64,000 bases of DNA, taken from Knoellia sp. S7-12. Its GTDB lineage: Bacteria > Actinomycetota > Actinomycetes > Actinomycetales > Dermatophilaceae. Position 1 is the first letter of the stretch. Each line of letters opens with the position of its first letter. Both the position numbers and the translations under genes were made by a program. The notes beneath the pieces were generated by a model. It did not search any database and had not been told where the DNA came from. It was given only the letters and a program-made list of their open reading frames with translations. The stretch is taken from assembly GCF_040518285.1 (NCBI RefSeq), contig NZ_CP155449.1, positions 310,001 to 374,000 on the forward strand, in the 5' to 3' direction. Positions 45,488-57,730 of this stretch are shown piece after piece.

Positions 45488-45640
45488 GCGGGACCGCCGC
45501 GTCACGGTGGCCGTCACGCCCCCTTCGCCGCCCGCTGTGCCTGCGGACCCCTGCCGAAGTCAGCAACACTGGCTCCAGCACCACAGGCCTTGGGCTGAAC
45601 CGTGAGGCCCTGACGTGCGTATGGATCGTTGGGAGGTCGT

Positions 45641-46153
45641 ATGGCGGACAGCGGTGCTGTGCTGATGAAGCAGCTTCATGACGAACATGCGGCTGCCCTG
45701 TGGGGCTATTGCCTCAGCCTGACCGGGCGCGACCATGCCAGAGCCGAGGACGTCGTGCAGGAAACCCTGCTGCGGGCCTGGCGCAACCACGACCGGCTCG
45801 AGGAGAGTCGCGGGTCGGTCCGGTCCTGGCTCTTCACGGTGGCGCGCAACATCGTCATCGACGAGTGGCGCACCAAGCGCACCCACAGCGAGCTGTCGGT
45901 CGCCGAGGTACCCGAGGTGCGCGAGCCCAGCGACCAGACCGACCAGATGCTCATGTCCTGGGTCGTCGCTGACGCCCTGCTCGCCCTGTCTCCGGACCAC
46001 CGCGCGGTCCTGGTGGAGTGCTACTTCAAGGGTGCGTCGGTGGCCCAGGCCGCCCATCGTCTGGGGATCCCCGACGGTACGGTGAAGTCGCGGACCCACT
46101 ACGCCCTGCAGGCGTTGCGGCTGAGACTGCAGGAGATGGGGGTCGGAGCATGA
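45641..46153 (+). CDS. ECF RNA polymerase sigma factor, SigL/SigK-like
   Basis: The 170-residue sigma factor has region 2 (LWGYCLSLTGRDHARAEDVV, LLRAWRNHDRL, SWLFTVARNIVIDEWR, residues 20-90) and region 4 (LSPDHRAVLVECYFKGASVA, HRLGIPDGTVKSRTHYALQA). The following gene encodes a zinc anti-sigma protein, starting within the sigma stop codon (ATGA). GGGAGG close upstream supports ATG 45641. Confidence 0.92.
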   Translation: MADSGAVLMKQLHDEHAAALWGYCLSLTGRDHARAEDVVQETLLRAWRNHDRLEESRGSVRSWLFTVARNIVIDEWRTKRTHSELSVAEVPEVREPSDQTDQMLMSWVVADALLALSPDHRAVLVECYFKGASVAQAAHRLGIPDGTVKSRTHYALQALRLRLQEMGVGA

Positions 46154-46854
46154 GTTGCGAGCTCGCACACCTCGACGGGTCCTACGTCCTCGGCGCACTG
46201 TCGCCAGCCGAGCGCCTCGAGTTCGAGCGCCACATGGCGGGCTGCGCGGAGTGCAGTCGCAGCGTGAGGGAACTGGCCGGCATACCGGGTCTTCTTGCCC
46301 AGGTCGACCTGTCCGACATCGGGGACGCGTCCGTCCCTCCGGTCCCGGCCACGCTTCTGCCGTCGTTGGTGAGCGAGGTCCGGACGGCGCAGCGTCGGCG
46401 TTCCGTGTGGGTTGGTGCAGCGGCCGCGTCAGTGGCGGCCGTGGCCGTGGGAACGCTCGCTGTCGCGACCGGCCTTGGCCGTGGCCCTGAGCCGCTCGGG
46501 GCCTCGTCGCCCACGCCCACCGCGACGAGCACTGCATCCAAACTGTCCATGGAGGCGGTCGGGTCGTCGCCGGTCCGTGCGGACCTGGCGCTCGCGGGGG
46601 TGGCCTGGGGGACTCGGCTCGAGATGACGTGTTCCTACGGGGAGGGCGAGGACGACTACGAGGCAATCCACGGTTGGGTCTACGGCCTCTTCGTCCAGAC
46701 CCGTGACGGCCGCTTTGAACAGGTCGCGACGTGGAAGGGGCTACCGGGTCGCACGATGAACCTTCAAGCGGCGACGGCCGCTCAGCGGCAGGACATCCAG
46801 CGCGTTGAGGTCCGCACGTCCGGCGGGGTCGTGATCCTCCGACTCAGCGTGTGA
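46150..46854 (+). CDS. zinc-containing anti-sigma factor
   Basis: The 234-residue protein has an N-terminal ZAS domain with H28-x3-C32-x2-C35 (FERHMAGCAEC) that binds zinc and clamps the sigma factor, a single membrane helix at about residues 85-107 and an extracytoplasmic RskA/DUF-like domain. It is translationally coupled to the sigma gene. Signals outside the cell presumably trigger proteolysis or release. It ends 11 bases inside the convergent membrane-protein gene. Confidence 0.92.
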   Translation: MSCELAHLDGSYVLGALSPAERLEFERHMAGCAECSRSVRELAGIPGLLAQVDLSDIGDASVPPVPATLLPSLVSEVRTAQRRRSVWVGAAAASVAAVAVGTLAVATGLGRGPEPLGASSPTPTATSTASKLSMEAVGSSPVRADLALAGVAWGTRLEMTCSYGEGEDDYEAIHGWVYGLFVQTRDGRFEQVATWKGLPGRTMNLQAATAAQRQDIQRVEVRTSGGVVILRLSV

Positions 46855-47221
46855 GTGCGAGAGGCCTGCGGCTCGTCAGCACAGGGCGCAGGAGAGCCAG
46901 ACCGCCGAGGATACAGAGGACCTCGGCGACGGCGGCGGACAGCACCCAGCCGCCGGTCCACTGCTCGTTGACGCCGAAGAGCCCCACGGTCGAGGAGATG
47001 ACGAACGCCCCGAGGGTGCTGGCGCCGAACCCGAGAACGAGGAACGCCGGGAGCCAGTGGTGCCACGTCAGGAGCAGTGCGGCGATCACGGCGCCGGCGA
47101 TGGCGTTGACCATGAAGGCCAGGCCGATCTTGTCGATGTCGCGGTAGCCGTCGAACCACAGGTAGAGGTGAATCGCCGCCGATACCAAGGCTGCCGCAGC
47201 CGTCACGATCCGCACCCACAT
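46844..47221 (-). CDS. four-helix membrane protein
   Basis: The 125-residue protein has four membrane helices, beginning VTAAAALVSAAIHLYLWFDG and ending VLCILGGLALLRPVLTSR. An optimal GAAGGAGG precedes the ATG. Its family is not clear; an SdpI-like or DoxX-like small membrane protein is possible. It overlaps the end of the anti-sigma gene by 11 bases on the other strand. Confidence 0.75.
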   Translation of the reverse strand: MWVRIVTAAAALVSAAIHLYLWFDGYRDIDKIGLAFMVNAIAGAVIAALLLTWHHWLPAFLVLGFGASTLGAFVISSTVGLFGVNEQWTGGWVLSAAVAEVLCILGGLALLRPVLTSRRPLALTR

Positions 47222-47340
47222 GGTGCCCTCCTTCGATCCGGGACGACCCTCGTCCTCACCGTCAACACGGCCGCGAAGCCGCGTTGGTTCACTCGTTGAA
47301 CCACACGCGGTCGTGGTCCGTGAGTTCTTGCGTGGGAGAG

Positions 47341-48330
47341 GTGCGAGAACGAGCCTTCTGGCTGAGGGAACCCGGCGCGGGTGAGATCCGGCGCGTCGAT
47401 GTGGGTGTCCCGGGCGCTGGCGAGGTGCGCGTGCGGACGGTCCGCTCGGCGGTGAGCCGTGGGACGGAGATGCTCGTCTTCCGTGGTGGCGTGCCGGTCG
47501 AGGAGTATGCCGCGATGCGGGCTCCGTTCCAGGAGGGCACCTTCCCGGGGCCGGTGAAGTACGGCTACCTCAGCGTCGGCGTGGTCGAGGCAGGTGATGC
47601 CGACCTGCTGGGACGCACGGTCTTCTGCCTGCACCCGCACCAGACGGCATACATCGTTCCCCGCGGAGCGGTCGTGCCCGTGCCCGAGGGCATCCCACCG
47701 GACCGGGGCGTCCTCGCCGGAACGGTCGAAACAGCCGTCAACGCGATGTGGGACGCGACTCCGCTCGTGGGCGACCGGGTGGCGGTCGTGGGTGGCGGGA
47801 TGGTCGGGCTGTGTGTCGCGCGGCTGCTGGTGGGCGTGCCCGGGGTCGAGGTGACCGTGGTCGACGTCGACGAGGGGCGTCGTGACGTGGCTGCAGCCCT
47901 GGGGGCTGGCTTCGCATTGCCAGCGGATGCTCCGTCGGGGTTGGACCTCGTCGTGCATGCGAGCGCCTCGTCGGCTGGGCTGCAGCTGTCGCTCGACCTC
48001 CTCGCCGACGAGGGCACGGTGATCGACCTCAGCTGGTACGGCTCGTCGGAGGTGGCCCTGCGTCTCGGGGGCAGGTTCCACTCCGGGCGCCTGTCGATCC
48101 GGTCGAGCCAGGTGGGCATGGTCTCGCCGGCGCGGCGGTCGCGTCGGTCCATGACCGACCGGCTTCGGCTTGCCCTCGACCTGCTGCGCGATCCGGCGTT
48201 CGACGTTCTCGTGAGCGGCAGTTCGGCGTTCGAGGACCTGCCCGACGTGATGCGTGAGCTGGCCGACGGGGGCCTGCCAGCGCTGTGCCACACCATCACC
48301 TATGAAGGGGCCGAGCCATGTTCAGCGTGA
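47341..48330 (+). CDS. medium-chain dehydrogenase/reductase lacking the zinc-site GHE motif
   Basis: The about 329-residue protein has the MDR two-domain fold: an N-terminal catalytic domain ([20 protein letters not shown]) and a Rossmann domain with [18 protein letters not shown]. The usual GHE catalytic-zinc segment is replaced by KYGYLSVGV, so the classical alcohol dehydrogenase site is absent; BchC-like oxidoreductases share this look. It heads a nine-gene operon and overlaps the PTPS-like gene by 13 bases. GTG 47341 is chosen as the start of conserved sequence; GTG 47332 is equally open. Confidence 0.75.
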
Positions 48331-48716
48331 CCGTCCGCGACCACATGATGGTCGCCCACAGTCTCACCGGAGAGGTCTTCGGCCCGGCCCAGCAGTTGCA
48401 CGGCGCGACCTACGTCGTTGACCTGACGTTCCGTGCGCCGACGTTGGATGCCGACGGGCTGGTGGTGGACATCGGCTTGGCCTCGGGGGCGTTGGCTGCC
48501 GTCGTCGGGGACCTGTCCTACCGCAACCTCGACGACGACCCCAGCCTGTCGGGTGTCAACACGACGACCGAGCGCCTGGCCCAGGTCGTCGCGGACAGGG
48601 TCGCGGCGCGGTTGCGTGCGGGTGGGCTCGGGCCCCACGCGGATGGGGTCACCGCCATCGCCGTGGTGCTGCGCGAGTCCCACGTGGCGTGGGCGTCCTT
48701 CGAGAGGGCGCCATGA
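48318..48716 (+). CDS. 6-pyruvoyl-tetrahydropterin synthase/QueD-like protein, divergent
   Basis: The 132-residue protein has the T-fold PTPS pattern (MMVAHSL... [14 protein letters not shown] ... [16 protein letters not shown] ... [14 protein letters not shown]). PTPS and QueD bind zinc through three histidines and use a cysteine. Here H14 and H28 remain, but the third ligand of the HGH motif is A30 and the cysteine upstream of it is missing. Either it performs a different reaction without the standard metal site or it acts as a binding protein. It overlaps both neighbours, the next by ATGA. Confidence 0.8.
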
Positions 48717-49777
48717 GCAGCGTCAACGTCGTGCACGTGGTCGTCCCACGGGGGTTCGACGACCCGGCGCGGCCGAGCGGCGGCAACGCCTACGACCAGC
48801 GGGTCATCGTCGGCCTGCGGGCGGGTGGGTGGGTCGTGTGCGTTCGGGACGCGCCGGGCCCGGGGACGGTGCCGCACGCGGAGGTGACGGCCAGGCTGGG
48901 GGCTGCCCTCGCCGGCATACCGGATGGTGCCGTCGTTCTCCTCGACGGACTCGTGGCGTCGAGCCAACCCGAGGTCCTCGTGCCCGAGGGGCGCCGTCTC
49001 AGACTGGTCGTCCTCGTGCACCTGCCGCTCGGGTGTGGGGACGGTGCCGGGCAACGCGTGGCGGAGCGTGCCGTACTCCTCTCTGCATCGGGCATCGTCG
49101 TGACGAGCACCTGGAGCCGTGACTGGTTGTCGACTACGTATGCCTTGCCGCACAGCCAGATTCGCGTGGTCACCCCGGGCGCCGAGCCGGCGAGCCTCGT
49201 CTCGAACGACCCTTCGGGGGGTCGGCTGCTGTGCGTCGGTGCGGTGACACCGACCAAGGGGCAGGACGTGCTCGTGGAAGCGCTCGCGGAGGTTGTGGAC
49301 CTGGACTGGACCTGCCGGTGCGTGGGTTCGATGGCGATCAACCCGACCTTTGCCGACCGGGTTCGGGCTCGGGCCGCGTCGGCCGGGTTGGGTGATCGGC
49401 TCGCTTTCGTCGGCCCAAGAGTCGGTGCCGCACTCGATGCCGCGTATGCCGTGTCCGACCTTGTCGTCGTCCCGTCCAGGACCGAGACCTACGGGATGGT
49501 CGTGACCGAGGTCCTGGCTCGAGGCGTGCCGGTCGTCGGCTCCGAGGTCGGCGGACTGCCGGAAGCGCTCGGGGCAACACGAAGGGGAGGTCGGCCCGGC
49601 CTCCTGGTCCCTGGCGGCGACTCGGATGCCCTTGCTGATGCCCTGCGTCGGTGGCTCGTCGATGCCGGTCTGCGAGCCACGCTTCGACGGGCGGCGCAGG
49701 AGCGGCGATCCAGCTTGAGCGACTGGGCCGTGACGACGGACGCGCTGTCACGAGTCCTGAGGGAGGTGGCGGCATGA
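48713..49777 (+). CDS. GT4-family glycosyltransferase
   Basis: The 354-residue GT-B enzyme has the C-terminal nucleotide-sugar block with [20 protein letters not shown], including the retaining E-x7-E motif, and [29 protein letters not shown] segment begins the C-terminal domain, and a GGNAYDQRV loop lies at the N-terminus. It transfers a hexose or similar residue from an activated donor. Within the operon it probably glycosylates the pterin- or pyrimidine-derived product or a lipid carrier. Confidence 0.9.
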
Positions 49778-50664
49778 CCGAGGTCGAGATTCGGGTCAGC
49801 CCGCAGTGGCTGGAGCTGCGTGAGCCCGCGGACGCGGCTGCTCGCTCGACGGCGTTGGTGACCACGCTTGCCGCGGCACTCGAGGGCCAGGCGCTCGAAG
49901 GCGCAGCCCCGACCCTCGGTGACCGCCGGGGTGACAGTGTGTCCCATCGGCGGATCGTCGTGCACGACCTCGGGAGCGGCAGCGGCTCCATGGGGCGGTG
50001 GCTAGGGCCGCTGCTTGAGGGTCCGCAGCACTGGGTCCTGCATGACTGGGACCCGGACCTCCTGCGCGGTGCTGTTGGCGATCCGCCACCCGCCACGACC
50101 AACGGTGGCGCGGTGACCGTCGAGACCCGGCTGGGGGACATCACCCAGCTCACCCCGGAGGACCTCGGCGGCGCATCGCTCGTCACCGCGTCCGCTTTGC
50201 TCGACATGCTGACCGCGGCCGAGATCGGTCGACTGGTGGGGGCGGTGGTGGTTGCGGCATGCCCCGCGCTCCTCACCCTGTCGGTCACGGGGCACATCAC
50301 CCTCGGTCCGAGCGATCCGTGGGACGCCGTCCTCGAAGCCGCGTTCAACGACCACCAGCGCCGCACCCTCGGTGATCGCCAACTCCTCGGACCCGACGCG
50401 GCAAGGGTGGCGGCCGACAGCTTCCGGGCCGTCGGGTGGAGCGTGGAGCTGGCAGCGAGCCCCTGGTGCCTGGACTCACAGTCGGCCGAACTCGCCGCCG
50501 AGTGGCTCAAGGGTTGGGTCGGCGCCGCCTGCGAGCAGCGGCCGGAGCTCGGCGACATCGGCGCCTCGTACCTTGCCCGCCGACGCAACCTCTTCGAGCG
50601 CGGACTCGCCGTCACGGTGCAGCACGTCGACCTGCTCGCCCTGCCGCCGGGAGGTGGCCGGTGA
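49774..50664 (+). CDS. SAM-dependent methyltransferase (class I)
   Basis: The 296-residue protein has the Rossmann SAM-binding motif I VVHDLGSGSGSMGRWLGPLL (about residues 62-81) followed by an acidic motif II HDWDPDLL, and motif post-I LVTASALLDML. The C-terminal half carries a WLKGWVGAACEQRPEL helix. The substrate is not evident. Its ATG overlaps the glycosyltransferase stop, and the next GTG overlaps its own stop. Confidence 0.85.
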   Translation: MTEVEIRVSPQWLELREPADAAARSTALVTTLAAALEGQALEGAAPTLGDRRGDSVSHRRIVVHDLGSGSGSMGRWLGPLLEGPQHWVLHDWDPDLLRGAVGDPPPATTNGGAVTVETRLGDITQLTPEDLGGASLVTASALLDMLTAAEIGRLVGAVVVAACPALLTLSVTGHITLGPSDPWDAVLEAAFNDHQRRTLGDRQLLGPDAARVAADSFRAVGWSVELAASPWCLDSQSAELAAEWLKGWVGAACEQRPELGDIGASYLARRRNLFERGLAVTVQHVDLLALPPGGGR

Positions 50665-51602
50665 AGCCCGCGTCGTGGCGGTGGGTGCGGCCCGCCGCGG
50701 GCGCGCTGATCCTCGCCGCCCTCGTCCTGCGGCTGGGGACGGACGCCTTCGTCGACGCCATGCGTGCTGTCGATGCGACGGCTCTCGCCCTGGGCGCAGC
50801 GATCGCGCTGGTCACGACGACGGCGGGGGCCTGGCGCTGGCGGGTCGTCGCCCGGCAGCTGCACGTCGAGCTCGCGATGCCAGCGGCGGTTGTCGCCTGC
50901 TATCGCGCGCAGTTCCTCAACGTCACACTGCCTGGCGGCGTCCTCGGGGACATCGATCGCGGCGTGCACCATGGCCGCTCGGTCGACGATCTTGGTCGCG
51001 GTCTGCGGGCCGTCGCGTGGGAGCGGACCCTCGGCCAGGTGGCCCTCGTCGTCGTCACGGTGGGTGCGCTGGTTGTCGCCAACCCAGTGGGACTGACCGC
51101 TCTCGTCGCCGCGGTGGTCGGGGTCGTCGTCGGCGCCGTCGTGTTGATGGGGCTCACCCGCGTGTCGCGGGTGGTGGCCGCCGATGTCCGCGCCCTGTCG
51201 AGCCGGTCGGCGCTCGCGAAGGTCTTCGTGGCATCTCTCGTCGTCATGGCCGGGCACGTCGCGACCCTCGCGATCGCGGCACGGACGGTGGGAGTGCGTA
51301 TGCCGGCCTCCACCTTCGTGCCCGTCGCCCTCGTCGTTCTCCTGGTCGCCGCAGTGCCGCTCAACCTCGCGGGATGGGGCCCTCGCGAGGCAGCCGCGGT
51401 CTGGGCGTTCGGAGCAGCCGGGGCCAAGGCGAGTCAGGGGCTCGCGGTGGCCGTGGCCTTCGGGGTCATCGTCTTCGTCAGCACCCTCCCCGGCGTGGCA
51501 CTCCTCTCCGTCGGTCGTCGCACTTCACCAAACCTTGCGTCTGCGGATGCGGTGGCCAGAGGAGCCATACGCGCAGACGCAAGGCTGGGCGGTGGCACAT
51601 GA
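50661..51602 (+). CDS. LPG-synthase TM-type (UPF0104) membrane protein
   Basis: The 313-residue integral membrane protein has eight to nine helices with the family block FLNVTLPGGVLGDIDRGVHH near residues 92-111 and a C-terminal VPLNLAGWGPREAAAVWAFG, both typical of the MprF-like/AglD transmembrane domain. Such proteins bind or flip lipids or glycolipids in the membrane. Between a glycosyltransferase and cytosolic nucleotide-chemistry enzymes it may handle a lipid-linked intermediate. GTG 50661 overlaps the previous stop. Confidence 0.85.
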   Translation: MKPASWRWVRPAAGALILAALVLRLGTDAFVDAMRAVDATALALGAAIALVTTTAGAWRWRVVARQLHVELAMPAAVVACYRAQFLNVTLPGGVLGDIDRGVHHGRSVDDLGRGLRAVAWERTLGQVALVVVTVGALVVANPVGLTALVAAVVGVVVGAVVLMGLTRVSRVVAADVRALSSRSALAKVFVASLVVMAGHVATLAIAARTVGVRMPASTFVPVALVVLLVAAVPLNLAGWGPREAAAVWAFGAAGAKASQGLAVAVAFGVIVFVSTLPGVALLSVGRRTSPNLASADAVARGAIRADARLGGGT

Positions 51603-52339
51603 CTGACCTTCCCTACACGGTGCTCAGTTGTGCGATGTCGCTCGACGGCTACCTCGACGACGCCTCGGGGAAGCGGCTCGTCCTGTCGAATGCCGCCGAC
51701 CTCGACCGCGTGGACGAGGTCCGTGCAGGGAGCGACGCGATCCTCGTCGGGGCGGGCACGGTGCGCGCCGACAACCCGCGCCTCCTCGTCCGCGCGGCCC
51801 ACCGGCGGGAGAGGCGGGTCGCCGAGGGGCAGGGGCCATCACCACGGAAGGTGACGGTGACGCGGCATACGCTGCTTGATCCTTCAGCGGCCTTCTTCAC
51901 GACCGGGGAATGCGACAAGTACGTCTACTGCGCGAGCGCGACCGCGGCGGTGGCGCGGGAGCGGTTGGGGGAGGTCGCGACCGTTGTCGACGCGGGTGTG
52001 GAGCCGTCGATGCGCGCCGTGAGTGAGGACCTCGCGGCACGCGGTGTGCACCGGCTGCTCGTGGAGGGCGGGCAGAACGTCCACACGCAGTTCCTGCGGG
52101 CGAACCTCGCCGACGAGCTGCACGTCGTCGTCGCGCCGTTCTTCGTGGGGGACTCGCGTGCACACCGGGTCGTCGCCGACGGTCCCTTGCCGTGGAGCCG
52201 CACGCACCGGGCCGACCTCGTCGACGTGCAGCGGATCGAGGACGTCGTGCTCATGCGCTACGCGCTGTCCGAACGATGTGGAGTGCAGGCGTTCGAGGGC
52301 GAGTTGAGGCCATACGAGGCGATGGAGGTGGCACGATGA
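51599..52339 (+). CDS. RibD C-terminal (dihydrofolate reductase-like) domain protein
   Basis: The 246-residue NADPH reductase has the RibD_C/DHFR fold: [14 protein letters not shown] at the N-terminus, [20 protein letters not shown] for substrate and cofactor binding, and [15 protein letters not shown] with the glycine-rich phosphate loop. The classical partner reduces 5-amino-6-ribosylamino-pyrimidinone phosphate. Coupled by ATGA to GTP cyclohydrolase II, it should act on the diaminopyrimidine product, although the RibD deaminase half is not present. Confidence 0.9.
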
Positions 52340-52974
52340 CCGAACGACCAGCCGTGGCCACGGTTCGCACCGAGGTGACTGTGCCGATGCGCTTCGTCGA
52401 CGGGTTCACCACGATGGCCCGCGTCATCACGTTCGACGGCCTCGTTGACGGGCTGGAGCACCTGGCCATCGGCCTCGGTGACGCCGACGGACGGCTACCA
52501 CTCGTGAGGCTGCACAGCGAGTGCCTCACCGGCGACGTATTCGGCAGCCAGCGCTGCGACTGCGGCCCGCAGTTGCGTGAGGCGGTTGGGCGGATCGCGG
52601 AGGTCGGCGGCTACGTGCTGTATCTGCGACAGGAGGGGCGCGGCATCGGGCTCTACGCAAAGCTCGACGCCTATGCATTGCAGGACCTGGGCCTGGACAC
52701 CTATGAGGCGAACGTCGCGCTGGGGTTCCGGGAGGACGCGCGGGACTACACCGTGGCGGCGCAGATGATCCAGGCCCTCGGCCTGGCGCGGGTCGCGCTG
52801 CTGAGCAACAACCCCGACAAGGCGATCCAGCTGGGGCAGCTCGACGTCGGGGTGAGCGAGCGGGTCCCGACAGAGGTCCACTGGAGTTCGGCGAACGCGC
52901 GCTACCTCACGACGAAGGCAACGCGAGGGGCTCACACGTTCGATCTGCTGGCCGACCTCCGACTCGAGGCTTGA
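52336..52974 (+). CDS. ribA: GTP cyclohydrolase II
   Basis: The 212-residue enzyme opens GTP to 2,5-diamino-6-ribosylamino-4(3H)-pyrimidinone phosphate. The zinc site is C63-x10-C74-x-C76 ([17 protein letters not shown]), followed by [15 protein letters not shown] with the catalytic Arg. It is a free-standing GCHII, unlike the usual actinobacterial RibBA fusion, and no DHBP synthase, lumazine synthase or riboflavin synthase gene lies around it. This argues for a dedicated secondary pathway rather than housekeeping riboflavin. Confidence 0.93.
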
Positions 52975-53001
52975 GGTCGGTGTCCTCATGAGCGTGGACC
53001 C

Positions 53002-55266
53002 GTGACCGTCGTCCTGGGCTCGTGGGGTGTCGGACTCGGTTGCGGCGCCGTGCTCATCGCGCTCCTGCGACGTGGCCTCGGGAGGGCTTGGCTCGCCCGG
53101 CTCGGACCGGCCGACGTGGTGACGCTCGTGCGTGGCCTCATGGCCTGCGCGGTGGCGGCCCTGACCGTCCAGCTGGTGATGGGGCACGACGTCCGGGTGG
53201 CCGTGGTGGCCGTGGCTGTCCCCGGGTTGGCTCTCGACGGCGTCGACGGTTGGGTGGCGCGCCGGACGAGCACGGTGACCGCGCTGGGCGCTCGCTTCGA
53301 CGGGGAGGTGGACGCGTTCCTCATCCTCGTCCTCAGTGTCGCGGCGGCGCCGACGTTCGGGTGGTGGGTGCTCACGGGAGGTCTGGCGCGCTATGCATTT
53401 GGTGTTGCTGGCTGGGTGGCGCCGTGGATGCAGGGGGCGCTCGAGTTCCGGTACTGGCGCAAGGTTGTGGCGGCGGCCGTGGGCATCGTGCTCGTGGTCG
53501 CCGTGGCCGATGTCCTGCCGCGAGGGGTGGCCTTGGGTGCTTTGGTCGGCGCCCACGTCCTGCTGGCCGAGTCGTTCGGGCGGGACGTGTGGTCGCTGTG
53601 GAGGGGGCGCGCCGGCGTGGCTCGCGAAGTCGTTGGCTCGGCGACACGATGGGGCGGTTTGGCGCGGAGCGCCGTGGTGGGGGTCGTGGCGGTGGCGCTG
53701 CTCTGGTTCGTCCTCGTCGCGCCCAACCAGCTGAATCGTCTGACGCCGGGTTCTTTCCTGCGTATGCCGGTCGAGATCGTCGCGTTTGGTGCTCTCGTTC
53801 TCGTTGTCCCGGCGCGTCTTCACCGGGTCGTCGTGGCCGTGCCGGGGATGGTCGTGAGTGTCGTTCTGCTGTTCAAGGTCCTCGACCTCGGGGCCTTTGC
53901 CGTGCTCGACCGACCCTTCAATCTCGTGACTGACGTGGGGCTGCTCGGGTCGGGCTGGGCGTTCGTGAGGGACTCGTGGGGTCCGTGGGCCGCGGTCGGG
54001 AGCATCGTGGCGGTGCTGCTGGTGCTGGCGGTCGTGATCGTGGGCCCTGTGTGGGCAGTTGGGCGGATGGCCCGCGTCGTCGTGCGCGACCGTCGGCGAG
54101 GGGTTCGAGGAGTCGTGATCCTGGCTGCCGTCTGGGCGCTCGGCGCAGTCACCGGGCTGCAGAGCGCCGCTGGCGCAACGGTTTCCGTGAGTGGTGCCGT
54201 GCCGTATGTGGCCGGGAAGGTCCGGGCCGCCGAGACGGCATACAGGGATCGTGTGGTGTTCAGGCAGGCCATCGGCGTGGACCCGTATCGAACTCCGGTG
54301 CCGGGCGAGCTGGATGGACTCGAGGGCAAGGACGTCGTGGTCGTGTTCGTGGAGAGCTATGGACGGGTGGCACTGGAAGGAGCTGAATCGCAGCCTGTGA
54401 GAACGGTTCTGGACAGTGGGACGCAGCAGCTGCGATCGCTCGGCTTCGAGGCGAGGAGCGGGTACCTCACGTCGACGACGTTCGGTGGGAGCAGCTGGCT
54501 CGCACACTCCACGCTCCTGTCCGGGCTGGCGGTGAGCGACCAGAGCCGCTACGACCTGCTCCTCTCCTCCGACCGCACGACCCTCGCCTCGGCCTTCTCA
54601 CGGGCGGGGTGGCGCACGGTCGCCCTGATGCCATCGACACGAGGGGACTGGCCCGAGGGGCAGGTCTTCTATGGTTTCGACGAGGTCCTCACGGGTTCCG
54701 AACTTCGCTATGCCGGGCCGCGATTCGGCTTCTCGGCGGTGCCGGACCAGTTCGCCCTGTCTGCGTTCGGTGAGATGGAATTGGGGGATACCCGGCCGCG
54801 TCCGGTCATGGCCCAGGTCGAGCTCACGTCGAGCCATGGTCCGTGGGCGCCGTTGCCCACGATGGTTTCGCCGAGCGCGCTTGGAGACGGGTCGGTCTTC
54901 AACGGCCAGCTGGAGAAGGCGACCACGGCAGCAGAGCTGTGGCGCGACCGCTCGGCCGTGCCGGCGGCATTCCGGGAGTCGATCGTGTACTCGCTGTCGA
55001 GCGTCATCTCTTTCGCGGAGCAGGAGGCCGACGACGACCTCGTTCTTGTCGTCCTCGGGGACCACCAACCGGCGACGATCATCAGTGGGTTCGACGGGAA
55101 GCGAGACGTGCCGGTCAGTGTCATCGCGCGCGACCCCAAAGTGATGGAGCGGATCGCGAGCTGGGGCTGGCAGGACGGGCTGCGGCCGGGGGAGGGGTCG
55201 CCGGTGTGGCCGATGGCCGACTTCCGCGACCGCTTCCTCGGTGCGTTCGGGGGTGTGGCGCCGTGA
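53002..55266 (+). CDS. CDP-alcohol phosphatidyltransferase fused to a sulfatase/phosphotransferase-type domain
   Basis: The 754-residue membrane protein begins with a CDP-alcohol phosphatidyltransferase domain bearing the complete motif D79-x2-D82-G83-x2-A86-R87-x8-G96-x3-D100-x3-D104. Four to five further helices (about 230-400) lead to an extracytoplasmic LtaS-like sulfatase domain (VVVFVESYGRVAL near residue 450, HSTLLSGL, SSHGPWAPLP, VLGDHQPATII). The fusion would couple phospholipid head-group transfer with phosphoglycerol or sulfate-type chemistry outside. GTG 53002 is the only start that includes the motif. Confidence 0.85.
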   Translation: MTVVLGSWGVGLGCGAVLIALLRRGLGRAWLARLGPADVVTLVRGLMACAVAALTVQLVMGHDVRVAVVAVAVPGLALDGVDGWVARRTSTVTALGARFDGEVDAFLILVLSVAAAPTFGWWVLTGGLARYAFGVAGWVAPWMQGALEFRYWRKVVAAAVGIVLVVAVADVLPRGVALGALVGAHVLLAESFGRDVWSLWRGRAGVAREVVGSATRWGGLARSAVVGVVAVALLWFVLVAPNQLNRLTPGSFLRMPVEIVAFGALVLVVPARLHRVVVAVPGMVVSVVLLFKVLDLGAFAVLDRPFNLVTDVGLLGSGWAFVRDSWGPWAAVGSIVAVLLVLAVVIVGPVWAVGRMARVVVRDRRRGVRGVVILAAVWALGAVTGLQSAAGATVSVSGAVPYVAGKVRAAETAYRDRVVFRQAIGVDPYRTPVPGELDGLEGKDVVVVFVESYGRVALEGAESQPVRTVLDSGTQQLRSLGFEARSGYLTSTTFGGSSWLAHSTLLSGLAVSDQSRYDLLLSSDRTTLASAFSRAGWRTVALMPSTRGDWPEGQVFYGFDEVLTGSELRYAGPRFGFSAVPDQFALSAFGEMELGDTRPRPVMAQVELTSSHGPWAPLPTMVSPSALGDGSVFNGQLEKATTAAELWRDRSAVPAAFRESIVYSLSSVISFAEQEADDDLVLVVLGDHQPATIISGFDGKRDVPVSVIARDPKVMERIASWGWQDGLRPGEGSPVWPMADFRDRFLGAFGGVAP

Positions 55267-56039
55267 CGGTGATGGACCACTGGCCGGACGTGGACCGAGT
55301 GCTCTGGAGGGCGCGGGAGTCGGCGTTCCCACCGGGGGAGTTCGTTGGTCAGGAAAGCCTCGTCAGCGCGAGCGAGATCCGGTGGCTCGGCGAGCGGGCG
55401 GGGCTGCGGGAGGGCGTGTCGGTCCTCGACCTGTGCTGCGGTGTGTCCGGTCCGGGGTTGCTCCTCGTGGAGGAGTTCGGGTGCGGCTACCTGGGGGTGG
55501 ACGCCGATGGAGGGTCGATCGATCGTGCCCGGCTGAGGGCTGCGGAGGCCGGGCTGAGCGCGCAATTCGAGGTCGTGAGTGTGCCGCCGGTGCCGACCGG
55601 GACGTTCGATGTGGTGCTGCTGCTCGAGACGTTCCTGGCGTTCCGCGACAAGGGGGTGTTGCTTCATGAGGTCGCCTCGGCCCTGCCGGTGGGTGGGCGG
55701 TTTGCCTTCACCGTCGAGGAGGGGCGAGCGCTCAGCCCGGAGGAACGGGCGGTGATGCCGGGTGGCGACACCGTATGGCTCACACCGCTTGCGAGCCTGC
55801 GGCCCGACCTTGAGAGGGCTGGGTTCGAGGTGCGCTGGATGGCGGATCGCAGTCAGGCGCACCGCGTCGTCGTCGATGCGTTGGCCGATGCCTATCAGGG
55901 TTGCGGGGCTGGGATTCACGGGCTGCGCGGTGCCGAGCTGATCTCGCAGCTGGTGACCTCGCATCGCCTGTGGAGTCGGTGGTTGGGGCTCGGGCGGGTC
56001 CGCAAGTTCGTCGTTGTGGCAGAGAAGATGTGGGCTTGA
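55263..56039 (+). CDS. SAM-dependent methyltransferase (class I), operon end
   Basis: The 258-residue protein has motif I VSVLDLCCGVSGPGLLLVEE (about residues 53-72), motif II YLGVDADGGSID and motif post-I FDVVLLLETFLAF, the Methyltransf_11/25 layout. Its GTG overlaps the preceding stop codon, making it the last gene of the operon. It is unlike the methyltransferase at 49774, so two separate methylations may occur. Confidence 0.87.
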   Translation: MTVMDHWPDVDRVLWRARESAFPPGEFVGQESLVSASEIRWLGERAGLREGVSVLDLCCGVSGPGLLLVEEFGCGYLGVDADGGSIDRARLRAAEAGLSAQFEVVSVPPVPTGTFDVVLLLETFLAFRDKGVLLHEVASALPVGGRFAFTVEEGRALSPEERAVMPGGDTVWLTPLASLRPDLERAGFEVRWMADRSQAHRVVVDALADAYQGCGAGIHGLRGAELISQLVTSHRLWSRWLGLGRVRKFVVVAEKMWA

Positions 56040-56042
56040 ACC

Positions 56043-56438
56043 TCAGGGGCTCTGGGTGCTGAGGTGGCGTGGGTGTCGGCGCGCGTTGCGCGCGAAGAGC
56101 CAAGCCGCAAAGGTGAACAGGCCGGCATACATGGTGGTGAGCATGACCATGTCGGACGCGGAGGCGCCCGGGCTCTGGTGCTCGCCCATCGCGAAGGCAA
56201 CGGCGGTGCACCCCACTGTCGTGACGGCCGTCGCGAGCATCGCGACAGCCATGGGTCGCGGACGGAGCCGGGCGACGAGGGTCCCGGCGACGAAGACCGC
56301 GACGACCGCGAGATAGATCCGGTCGGAGTCGCCGTCACCGATGATGCCGAGCGCGCCGATGCCGAGGAGGAGGAATAGCAACGTCGCGATGGCGACGGCA
56401 AGGGGCAGGGCGCGGGAGACGCTCGGGTGTCTGGTCAT
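56043..56438 (-). CDS. four-helix membrane protein
   Basis: The 131-residue protein has four hydrophobic helices (ALPLAVAIATLLFLLLGIGA, IYLAVVAVFVAGTLVARL, AVAMLATAVTTVGCTAVAFA, MVMLTTMYAGLFTFAAWLF). No family is recognised. It converges with the operon end 4 bp away. A basic C-terminal tail faces the cytoplasm. Confidence 0.7.
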   Translation of the reverse strand: MTRHPSVSRALPLAVAIATLLFLLLGIGALGIIGDGDSDRIYLAVVAVFVAGTLVARLRPRPMAVAMLATAVTTVGCTAVAFAMGEHQSPGASASDMVMLTTMYAGLFTFAAWLFARNARRHPRHLSTQSP

Positions 56439-56752: not shown

Positions 56753-57730
56753 ATGTCCACGACGTCGACCCGTCCTTCTCGCTTCTCCCGGCTTGCATCC
56801 TTGGTGGTGCTCACCCTCGCCCTCGTCACCGTGCCGGCGGTCGTGACGCCTGGCGTGGCGCCGTCGGCTCACGCTGCCGTCCGGACGTGCTCGTCGACGA
56901 CGCCGGTGGCTTCACGTCCACAACTCGTTCGCGGCGACACGGGCAGTTGCGTCCGCGTCCTCCAGCAAGCACTCATCGCCAAGGGGTACTCGGTCGGAAG
57001 CTCGGGTGCTGACGGCTCCTTCGGCAGCGCGACCGACCTTGCCGTGAGGCGCTTCCAGTCCGACTACGTCGGCGTGAAGGTTGACGGCGTGGTCGGCCCG
57101 GTGACGTGGCGGACCCTCGTCAGCGGCGGCACCCGCTACTCGCGGACCACCGGGCCCAACCGGACGAGTCGGGTCGTCCTGAGCTTTGATGACTGCCCCA
57201 CGAGCTATTCGGCCTTCCAGAGTGCGGTGCTCGGAGCCGAGCGCCTCGGCGTCGCACTCGTCCTCTTCCCGACTGGCAATTGCATCACGGCGGGCAGGTT
57301 CAGTGCGTCCTATGCACGCGCGCACGGGCACTACGTCTTCAACCACTCGGTCTCACATCCAGACCTCAGGAATCTCAGCTACTCGAGCGTGAGGTACCAG
57401 CTCGGCTCGCCCGGAGTGGTCACGTCGTACGGCCGCCCGCCGTATGGCGCCTACAACAACACGGTCCTCAACGCGTACGCATCGAAGAGCATGAGGGTCT
57501 GGATGTGGACCGTCGACACCCAGGACTGGACGGGCAAGTCCCAGTCCTCTGTCGTCTCGTATGCCGTGTCCAACTCGCGTGCCGGGAGCACCGTGCTGAT
57601 GCACATGCAGTGGCGGGCGTTCAACACCACCGCCATCTCTCAGATGAAGTCCGGTCTCGCCAACCGGGGCCTGGGGGTCTGCCGCAACCTGGGAGCGACG
57701 TCGGTCGCCCCGGCGAGTGTGAGCTGCTGA
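56753..57730 (+). CDS. secreted peptidoglycan-binding polysaccharide deacetylase
   Basis: The 325-residue protein has a signal peptide (to about residue 42, AHA-AV), a PG_binding_1 domain (LVRGDTGSCVRVLQQALIAK to VDGVVGPVTWRTL, 58-122) and a NodB-type deacetylase domain with the metal-binding Asp pair in LSFDDCPTS (D146, D147), HSVSHPDL and RPPYGAYN. It should remove acetyl groups from peptidoglycan or other cell-wall glycans outside the cell. AAGGGGAG 9 nt upstream supports ATG 56753. Confidence 0.9.
   Translation: MSTTSTRPSRFSRLASLVVLTLALVTVPAVVTPGVAPSAHAAVRTCSSTTPVASRPQLVRGDTGSCVRVLQQALIAKGYSVGSSGADGSFGSATDLAVRRFQSDYVGVKVDGVVGPVTWRTLVSGGTRYSRTTGPNRTSRVVLSFDDCPTSYSAFQSAVLGAERLGVALVLFPTGNCITAGRFSASYARAHGHYVFNHSVSHPDLRNLSYSSVRYQLGSPGVVTSYGRPPYGAYNNTVLNAYASKSMRVWMWTVDTQDWTGKSQSSVVSYAVSNSRAGSTVLMHMQWRAFNTTAISQMKSGLANRGLGVCRNLGATSVAPASVSC

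Follow-up and report, generated by a model that had tools for sequence, protein, structure and literature searches.

The window analysed here is a stretch of 64,000 nucleotides of Knoellia sp. S7-12 (contig NZ_CP155449.1, positions 310,001 to 374,000), and our subject is an operon within it that includes a free-standing GTP cyclohydrolase II (GCHII) gene, together with the regulatory genes beside it (Table 1). Nine rightwards-transcribed genes span positions 47341–56039, and seven of the eight junctions between them overlap, the first by 13 bp and six by 4 bp, with a single 27-bp gap between the GCHII and CDP-alcohol phosphatidyltransferase genes; the nine-gene arrangement with nearly all junctions overlapping, as given in a preliminary description of this DNA, is borne out. 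The open reading frames (ORFs) on either side (46844–47221 and 56043–56438) are both transcribed leftwards, and the operon therefore looks closed. The genes constitute a conserved and real pathway, which is probably stress-regulated, and we put at roughly one in two the probability that the operon, under control of an extracytoplasmic function (ECF) sigma factor, is a dedicated branch of the riboflavin pathway making an envelope-anchored pyrimidine or pterin.

Pfam searches, in which the scanned frame of some genes began a few codons off, in frame, place genes 1, 2, 3 and 5 in the ADH_zinc_N (below cut-off), PTPS, Glycos_transf_1 and LPG_synthase_TM families, and genes 6–9 in RibD_C, GTP_cyclohydro2, CDP-OH_P_transf with a weak Sulfatase match (below cut-off), and a methyltransferase family, respectively. 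Gene 4 has no direct match in Pfam or NCBIfam; many relatives about 60% identical to it have a PF13649 domain or are annotated as S-adenosylmethionine (SAM)-dependent methyltransferases, and we therefore take it to be a methyltransferase.

Table 1. Features of the operon and its regulatory region, with positions in the window.
Feature	Position	Strand	Basis and remarks
ECF-type promoter-like site TGAACC-N16-CGT before sigma gene	45596..45620	+	11/11 loci
ECF sigma factor gene	45641..46153	+	Sigma70_r2/r4 (scanned from upstream TTG at 45629); beside cluster in 10 other loci
Zinc-finger anti-sigma, HxxxCxxC	46150..46854	+	zf-HC2; same 10 other loci
Small membrane protein, divergent from operon	46844..47221	-	In 9 other cluster loci, 5 with sigma gene
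TGAACC-N16-CGT site facing small membrane gene	47267..47291	-	
TGAACC-N16-CGT site facing operon, 19 bp before first start codon	47297..47321	+	
1, medium-chain dehydrogenase/reductase (MDR) without zinc sites	47341..48330	+	Pfam, alignment, AlphaFold model (pLDDT 85.3)
2, 6-pyruvoyltetrahydropterin synthase (PTPS)-like T-fold protein, SCO6650 family; catalytic Cys and third zinc His replaced by Ala	48318..48716	+	
3, glycosyltransferase of family 4 (GT4)	48713..49777	+	Glycos_transf_1, co-conservation
4, SAM-methyltransferase-like protein	49774..50664	+	Annotation of relatives
5, LPG_synthase_TM / flippase-like membrane protein	50661..51602	+	Pfam, co-conservation
6, RibD-C reductase, free-standing, archaeal/fungal type	51599..52339	+	Pfam, NCBIfam, PDB matches, residues
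7, GCHII, free-standing, Tyr type	52336..52974	+	Pfam, NCBIfam, residue
8, CDP-alcohol phosphatidyltransferase fused to membrane LtaS/LtaP-like domain	53002..55266	+	Pfam, profile, motif, fold
9, second methyltransferase	55263..56039	+	Pfam; rare with cluster (3/53 full-flank loci)

Scanning 84,980 species genomes with an alignment of the dehydrogenase matched at least 598 stretches, at least 559 of them encoding a relative; the loci analysed are the best 80 of these, thus the nearest ones, and 53 of the 80 have more than 20 kb of sequence (full-flank loci). All 80 are titled as actinobacteria except one bin (L021, titled Burkholderiaceae bacterium), which has an actinobacterial-type cluster with a dehydrogenase 68% identical to that of the window, reflecting either misbinning or transfer. 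Genes in the full-flank loci were located by tblastn at a floor of 45 bits, so that divergent members can be missed. The dehydrogenase (the query), PTPS-like and CDP-alcohol transferase genes are present in 53/53, the GT4 and LPG_synthase_TM genes each in 52/53, GCHII in 44/53, the methyltransferase in 40/53, the reductase in 30/53, a creatininase-family gene in 27/53, the LtaS-like domain in 23/53, and the second methyltransferase in 3/53; clustering of neighbouring ORFs, as called by an imperfect gene caller, revealed no additional family that exceeded 15 mapped loci. The expectation that these genes belong together, and would be found together in related genomes, is upheld by their co-conservation in the full-flank loci, in distant bacteria and in Haloarcula.

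The more distant versions, which come from plasmid records, vary in composition. Those of Rhizobium, Agrobacterium and Peteryoungia include LtaS-like, flippase, CDP-alcohol transferase, GCHII, MDR, PTPS-like, GT4, methyltransferase and reductase genes along with a cytochrome b gene; the last is present in four proteobacterial versions (L006, L004, L137 and L138) and hints at membrane redox chemistry. Subsets of the cluster are found in Thiodictyon, Microbacterium, Methylosinus, Neorhizobium and two Rhodobacterales, some with MdoH, PfkB kinase or inositol monophosphatase genes. An MdoH-type membrane glucosyltransferase gene lies directly upstream of the dehydrogenase gene in Methylosinus (L007, 10067–11869, on the opposite strand) and in Neorhizobium (L140, 8079–9992, on the same strand). 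Two Haloarcula records have GT4, CDP-alcohol transferase, archaeal GTP cyclohydrolase IIa, MDR, PTPS-like and methyltransferase genes, and in Natrarchaeobaculum the cyclohydrolase gene adjoins the MDR gene, with no recognisable PTPS-like gene.

Prevalence was sampled in 296 Actinomycetota genomes with a PTPS profile at an E-value of 1e-15 or better; 35 genomes match, nine of them above 120 bits, including that of the window. Regions were taken for 15 of the 35, one of them matching at 169 bits and the other 14 at less than 85 bits. Nine of the 15 are from the family that includes Rubrobacter taiwanensis and R. xylanophilus (family code f18) and have the order reductase–MDR–PTPS–GT4, with a methyltransferase gene and a divergent FolB gene in 9/9; the 169-bit region has MDR–PTPS–GT4, and five have the PTPS match and no dehydrogenase.

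On the evidence of sequence, the sigma and anti-sigma genes and the small membrane protein gene (45641–47221), which lie outside the coordinates of the preliminary description, belong with the operon; the small membrane protein has no Pfam match. Ten other loci likewise have the sigma and anti-sigma genes next to the cluster, in varying position (an eleventh, weak match of 63.5 bits in L053 is excluded from the count). A divergent pair of TGAACC-N16-CGT sites precedes the MDR gene in 11/11 loci with the sigma gene, and any such site is found there in 8 of 77 other loci, four of these being inside the dehydrogenase gene itself; the 11 MDR regions have 22 sites, compared with 0.06 expected by base shuffling. 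Counted in the window only, the loose motif is weak evidence, with four sites versus 1.5 expected and 9 of 100 shuffles reaching four, and the strict motif (with a CGTRT end) gives two versus 0.08 expected. Genome-wide, the strict motif has seven sites (two for a reversed control), only two of which are outside ORFs as predicted by a simple caller, one before the sigma gene and one before the small membrane gene; the operon-facing site is not of the strict form. A wider regulon was considered and discarded, as five of the seven strict sites fall inside predicted ORFs. The ECF sigma/zinc anti-sigma pair with its paired sites is a new finding. Oxidation weakens the binding of the zinc anti-sigma factor RslA to its sigma factor (PMC2877774), and thiol or oxidative stress is therefore a reasonable candidate, by analogy, for the trigger here. 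On the other side of the operon, just downstream, is a gene (56753–57730) with peptidoglycan-binding and polysaccharide deacetylase domains.

The GCHII protein is a clear member of the PRK00393/RibA family (252.3 bits, cut-off 148) and has Tyr at the position that we take to be equivalent to E. coli Tyr105, where Tyr presumably denotes an enzyme releasing the deformylated product and Met one that does not. Spoonamore and Bandarian reportedly found that a Met-type GCHII stops at the formylated product. BrbF, a creatininase-family enzyme, can deformylate that product, as reported in PMC9478397. Related loci have creatininase-family genes, candidate deformylase genes by family match and by co-occurrence with Met- or His-type GCHII, and the residue and the gene match in 60/60 rows: 27 with Tyr lack the gene, and 26 with Met and seven with His have it (28 of 88 mapped rows have no GCHII match above 100 bits and are excluded). 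Statistical proof of this match was sought and not reached; mapping onto the MDR tree gives only one or two independent changes, and the pattern is therefore consistent, rather than statistical, evidence.

The RibD_C protein has no deaminase domain detectable with Pfam. Its best NCBIfam match is the archaeal reductase TIGR01508, below cut-off (130.9 of 186.45 bits), and its top PDB matches are presumably variants of Methanosarcina mazei Rib7. In bacterial RibD a Lys (BsRibG Lys151) is believed to recognise the deaminated substrate by its C2 oxygen, and a T35K substitution in yeast RIB7 altered substrate preference (PMC3631187). None of 59 cluster reductases has Lys at this position (47 have Ser, 11 Gln and one His); the bifunctional RibD encoded elsewhere in the genome does have Lys there. 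With no Lys and an archaeal reductase as its best family, the protein is of the archaeal/fungal (Rib7) type, and the absence of the Lys for a deaminated substrate makes it most likely that the 2-amino group of the substrate is retained. The proposal that GCHII and the reductase yield a reduced ribosylamino-pyrimidine thus stands as to the un-deaminated type, for which the residues speak, and its chemistry is carried over from what is known of the families.

In genus g8, probably Streptomyces, the reductase gene is far from the PTPS-like gene and beside a Tyr-type GCHII gene in all five genomes with a PTPS-like gene; the reductase gene is found in one of three g8 genomes without a PTPS-like gene, and in none of four other genomes without one. 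Away from the cluster, g8 genomes (L149–L153) thus carry a second free-standing Tyr-type GCHII alongside a Rib7-type reductase. A replacement reductase inside the Streptomyces clusters was also considered; none was seen in the neighbour-ORF clustering, with its imperfect caller, and the reductase is located elsewhere.

The 4.16-Mb genome, assembled as one contig, has other rib genes at 1.972–1.976 Mb, including RibD at 1972067, a second GCHII in a 417-residue frame at 1974602 with a RibB-like N-terminus, and lumazine synthase at 1975246; RibBA, RibD and RibH are thus encoded elsewhere. Because of these separate genes the operon is not the housekeeping riboflavin pathway, a role that the preliminary description had tied to the lack of any other ribA. 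Could it be an accessory route of riboflavin or flavin supply, for example for secretion or under stress? GCHII and the reductase are the first enzymes of the operon's chemistry, and separate flavin routes and a creatininase-family formamidase have been proposed for Sinorhizobium meliloti (PMC9478397). However, a Pfam scan found no RibB, deaminase, RibH or RibE among the nine proteins, in line with the earlier statement that lumazine and riboflavin synthases are absent from the operon and unlike a bacterial riboflavin pathway, in which these enzymes would stand alongside; the reductase is of a type unfit for the bacterial route, the genome is already served by its own rib genes, and the PTPS-like, GT4, CDP-alcohol transferase and flippase-like genes are left unexplained. 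We regard such a supply role as very improbable.

The PTPS-like protein, the product of the only PTPS-family gene in the genome, matches a single PDB sequence, SCO6650 (3d7j; E-value 1.9e-51 over 131 residues), which is said to be inactive as a PTPS and to lack zinc and the triad. On the ligand and catalytic roles presumed for these positions, the catalytic Cys position has Ala in 95 and Glu in one of 96 PTPS-like proteins, and Cys in none; the triad His column has His in 0/96 and Tyr in 91; and Glu at 85 and 120 is present in 96/96, retaining the putative pterin-anchoring Glu. At the position of the third zinc His, 86 of 87 main rows have Ala, whereas 9/9 Rubrobacter proteins and the one from Haloarcula have His. 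The signature of 6-carboxytetrahydropterin and 6-pyruvoyltetrahydropterin synthases (Cys, Asp-His and three zinc His) is therefore absent, and the protein has instead the FGPAQ..HGA motif and separate clade of the SCO6650 type. In a tree of 42 chosen rows those with HGA, in which Ala replaces the third zinc His, lie on one side of a branch with support 98/93, which fits a lineage that would have lost catalysis first and the zinc site later. Relatives are named 6-carboxytetrahydropterin synthase in databases, and taking that name at face value would make this an ordinary QueD, biopterin or folate enzyme with coincidental neighbours; but it scores far under the QueD cut-off (38.3 versus 89.25 bits), the catalytic Cys and His are gone, the main clade is without one zinc His, and the neighbours are constant across loci, leaving this explanation with hardly any credibility.

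The dehydrogenase was described as an MDR enzyme without the zinc motif, and its alignment with one ordinary zinc enzyme agrees, both zinc sites being absent: Ser39 and Tyr76 take the places of the catalytic Cys and His, and there is no structural-zinc lobe. It is thus not a zinc-dependent MDR alcohol dehydrogenase; among PDB sequences, those closest to it belong to alcohol and polyol dehydrogenases.

In gene 8, the CDP-alcohol motif DxxDGxxARxxxxxxxxGxxxDxxxD is intact, and it is invariant in 15 aligned sequences, including that of Haloarcula. No cytidylyltransferase was noticed among the annotated neighbours, with no dedicated search made, and CDP-diacylglycerol is therefore the likely donor, as judged from gene content. 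In at least 14 of the 35 loci that have the domain (19 on a looser count), a single frame encodes both the LtaS-like half and the CDP-alcohol part; in others the LtaS-like half is a gene of its own. The only PDB match of its profile at an E-value of 1 or better is the lipoteichoic acid primase LtaP (0.0048), and a fold search with the AlphaFold model (pLDDT 83.7, pTM 0.77, N-terminal part helical) places LtaP/LtaS at ranks 1–7 and 9–12 and the phosphoglycerol transferase GacH at rank 33. Across 20 sequences the metal-type Glu and Asp-His are invariant and the candidate Thr nearly so, positions whose roles, that of the Thr as nucleophile included, are presumed from the fold.

We propose the following scheme. 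The gene content, its conservation, the residues, the fusion and the promoter-like sites are seen in the sequences themselves; the first two reactions follow family knowledge, and the later steps, the lipid linkage and the identity of the product are putative throughout. GCHII would open GTP to give 2,5-diamino-6-ribosylamino-4(3H)-pyrimidinone 5'-phosphate, and the RibD-C reductase would convert the ribosyl to a ribityl group, leaving the 2-amino group in place. The zinc-less dehydrogenase and the PTPS-like protein may then remodel the 2-amino-4-oxo heterocycle, and our guess is that the ribityl chain is oxidised and the ring closed to form a pterin-like compound, which GT4 and one or both methyltransferases would decorate. 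The CDP-alcohol transferase might join the decorated compound to the phosphatidyl group of CDP-diacylglycerol, and the flippase-like protein could assist in its transport across the membrane. In loci that have the LtaS/LtaP-like domain, this domain may then transfer the phospho-headgroup to an extracytoplasmic acceptor.

Several observations weigh against this scheme. Of 22 genomes matched by the PTPS profile (the cluster having been viewed in part of them), 21 have GTP cyclohydrolase I, so that a pterin could arise without the cluster route; an alternative folate route was also dropped, being unneeded for the same reason. Of the 59 reductases, 47 have and 12 lack the Asp that, judging by the PDB variants, presumably corresponds to M. 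mazei D33 and that we regard as a second archaeal-type mark, and on the MDR tree the four GCHII residue changes and two creatininase changes form only one independent pair on supported branches, or two on all branches. The LtaS match is remote (TM-scores 0.34–0.51, 12–16% identity), and sulfatases and EptC-type enzymes rank closely behind in the model-based search, so that the exact chemistry is not fixed by the fold. An LtaS-like domain was not found in 30 of the 53 full-flank loci, and at the threshold used no CDP-alcohol transferase, flippase or LtaS-like match was found in any of the nine Rubrobacter loci, only one of which has GCHII beside the cluster; lipid linkage may therefore be an add-on.

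These Rubrobacter loci, with reductase, MDR, PTPS-like, GT4 and methyltransferase genes in 9/9, and FolB divergently beside them (e.g. L095, 6774–7145), lend themselves to the main rival explanation: a soluble glycosylated and methylated pyrimidine or pterin, secreted or intracellular and akin to the pterin glycosides of cyanobacteria, with the lipid-type genes being separate or serving export only. However, the CDP-alcohol transferase is present in 53/53 and the flippase in 52/53 actinobacterial-type loci, and the former also in Rhizobiaceae and Haloarcula; the FolB, considered as a possible pathway member, is the only one found in eight of the nine genomes and may be a plain folate enzyme (FolK is located elsewhere in eight and was not found in one). 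We think this rival unlikely, if the most serious. The preliminary suggestion of a lipid-linked or exported product accordingly draws support from the intact CDP-alcohol motif, the LtaS/LtaP-like fusion and the near-constant flippase, and is weakened by the loci that lack them.

The envelope-anchored product could have a broader meaning, for which we claim still less, as a doubtful and composite proposal: an undescribed class of membrane phospholipid common to bacteria and haloarchaea, with a GTP-derived ribityl-pyrimidine or pterin as headgroup, its synthesis involving a dehydrogenase devoid of zinc and a T-fold protein no longer capable of PTPS catalysis. A thiol-sensing ECF sigma factor would control it in some actinobacteria, and certain lineages would pass its headgroup to an envelope glycan, as phosphoglycerol is transferred in teichoic acid synthesis. 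The cluster comprises about ten gene families, with versions in distant bacteria and haloarchaea, that are annotated, in the records examined, as queuosine, riboflavin or alcohol dehydrogenase genes. If an envelope-anchored pyrimidine or pterin is indeed made, GTP ring opening would have a further use beside flavins and pterins, tied to the cell envelope, and orphan proteins of the SCO6650/SCO6655 type would gain a role; the substrate class, deformylase, regulator and cell fraction are all predicted.

Loci of this type are known in part, from the structure of SCO6650 (PDB 3d7j) and the inclusion of SCO6655 in a published table; a search of the open-access literature, which leaves most subscription papers outside its coverage, found no report of the cluster or of a lipid bearing a pterin or pyrimidine. 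SCO6655 of Streptomyces coelicolor reportedly makes the formylated pyrimidine. In PMC2853524 it is listed as a GTP cyclohydrolase II among genes mostly rising in stationary phase. Set beside SCO6650/SCO6655, the features of the Knoellia operon are a Tyr-type GCHII with no creatininase gene in the operon, a reductase gene in the operon, and the fusion of the CDP-alcohol transferase to the LtaS-like domain. The archaeal/fungal riboflavin branch (GCHIII or GCHII, ArfB, Rib7) is similar in its first substrates and Rib7-type reductase, and offers in BrbF a precedent for a creatininase-family deformylase (PMC9478397). Unlike that branch, the operon has no deaminase, lumazine synthase or riboflavin synthase, and PTPS-like, GT4 and lipid genes follow instead. 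Toxoflavin-type 7-azapteridines and roseoflavin are specialised metabolites derived from GCHII or riboflavin-pathway intermediates, and their pathways are not known to include lipid, GT4 or PTPS-like enzymes.

The sites here resemble the TGAACC-type consensus of SigL promoters, and the operon shares with the SigL/RslA system an ECF sigma factor and an HxxxCxxC zinc anti-sigma factor. SigL of Mycobacterium tuberculosis controls cell-wall and polyketide genes (PMC2877774), whereas the pair here adjoins one biosynthetic operon, and the likeness is one of domains and sites. In the route from phosphatidylglycerol to lipoteichoic acid, the CDP-alcohol transferase PgsA makes the phospholipid and an LtaS-fold enzyme transfers the phospho-headgroup outside the cell. 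The operon is predicted to differ in having a GTP-derived headgroup rather than glycerol, and its similarity to LtaP is remote (15% identity), but both activities of the PgsA/LtaS/LtaP route are predicted here, in one chain.

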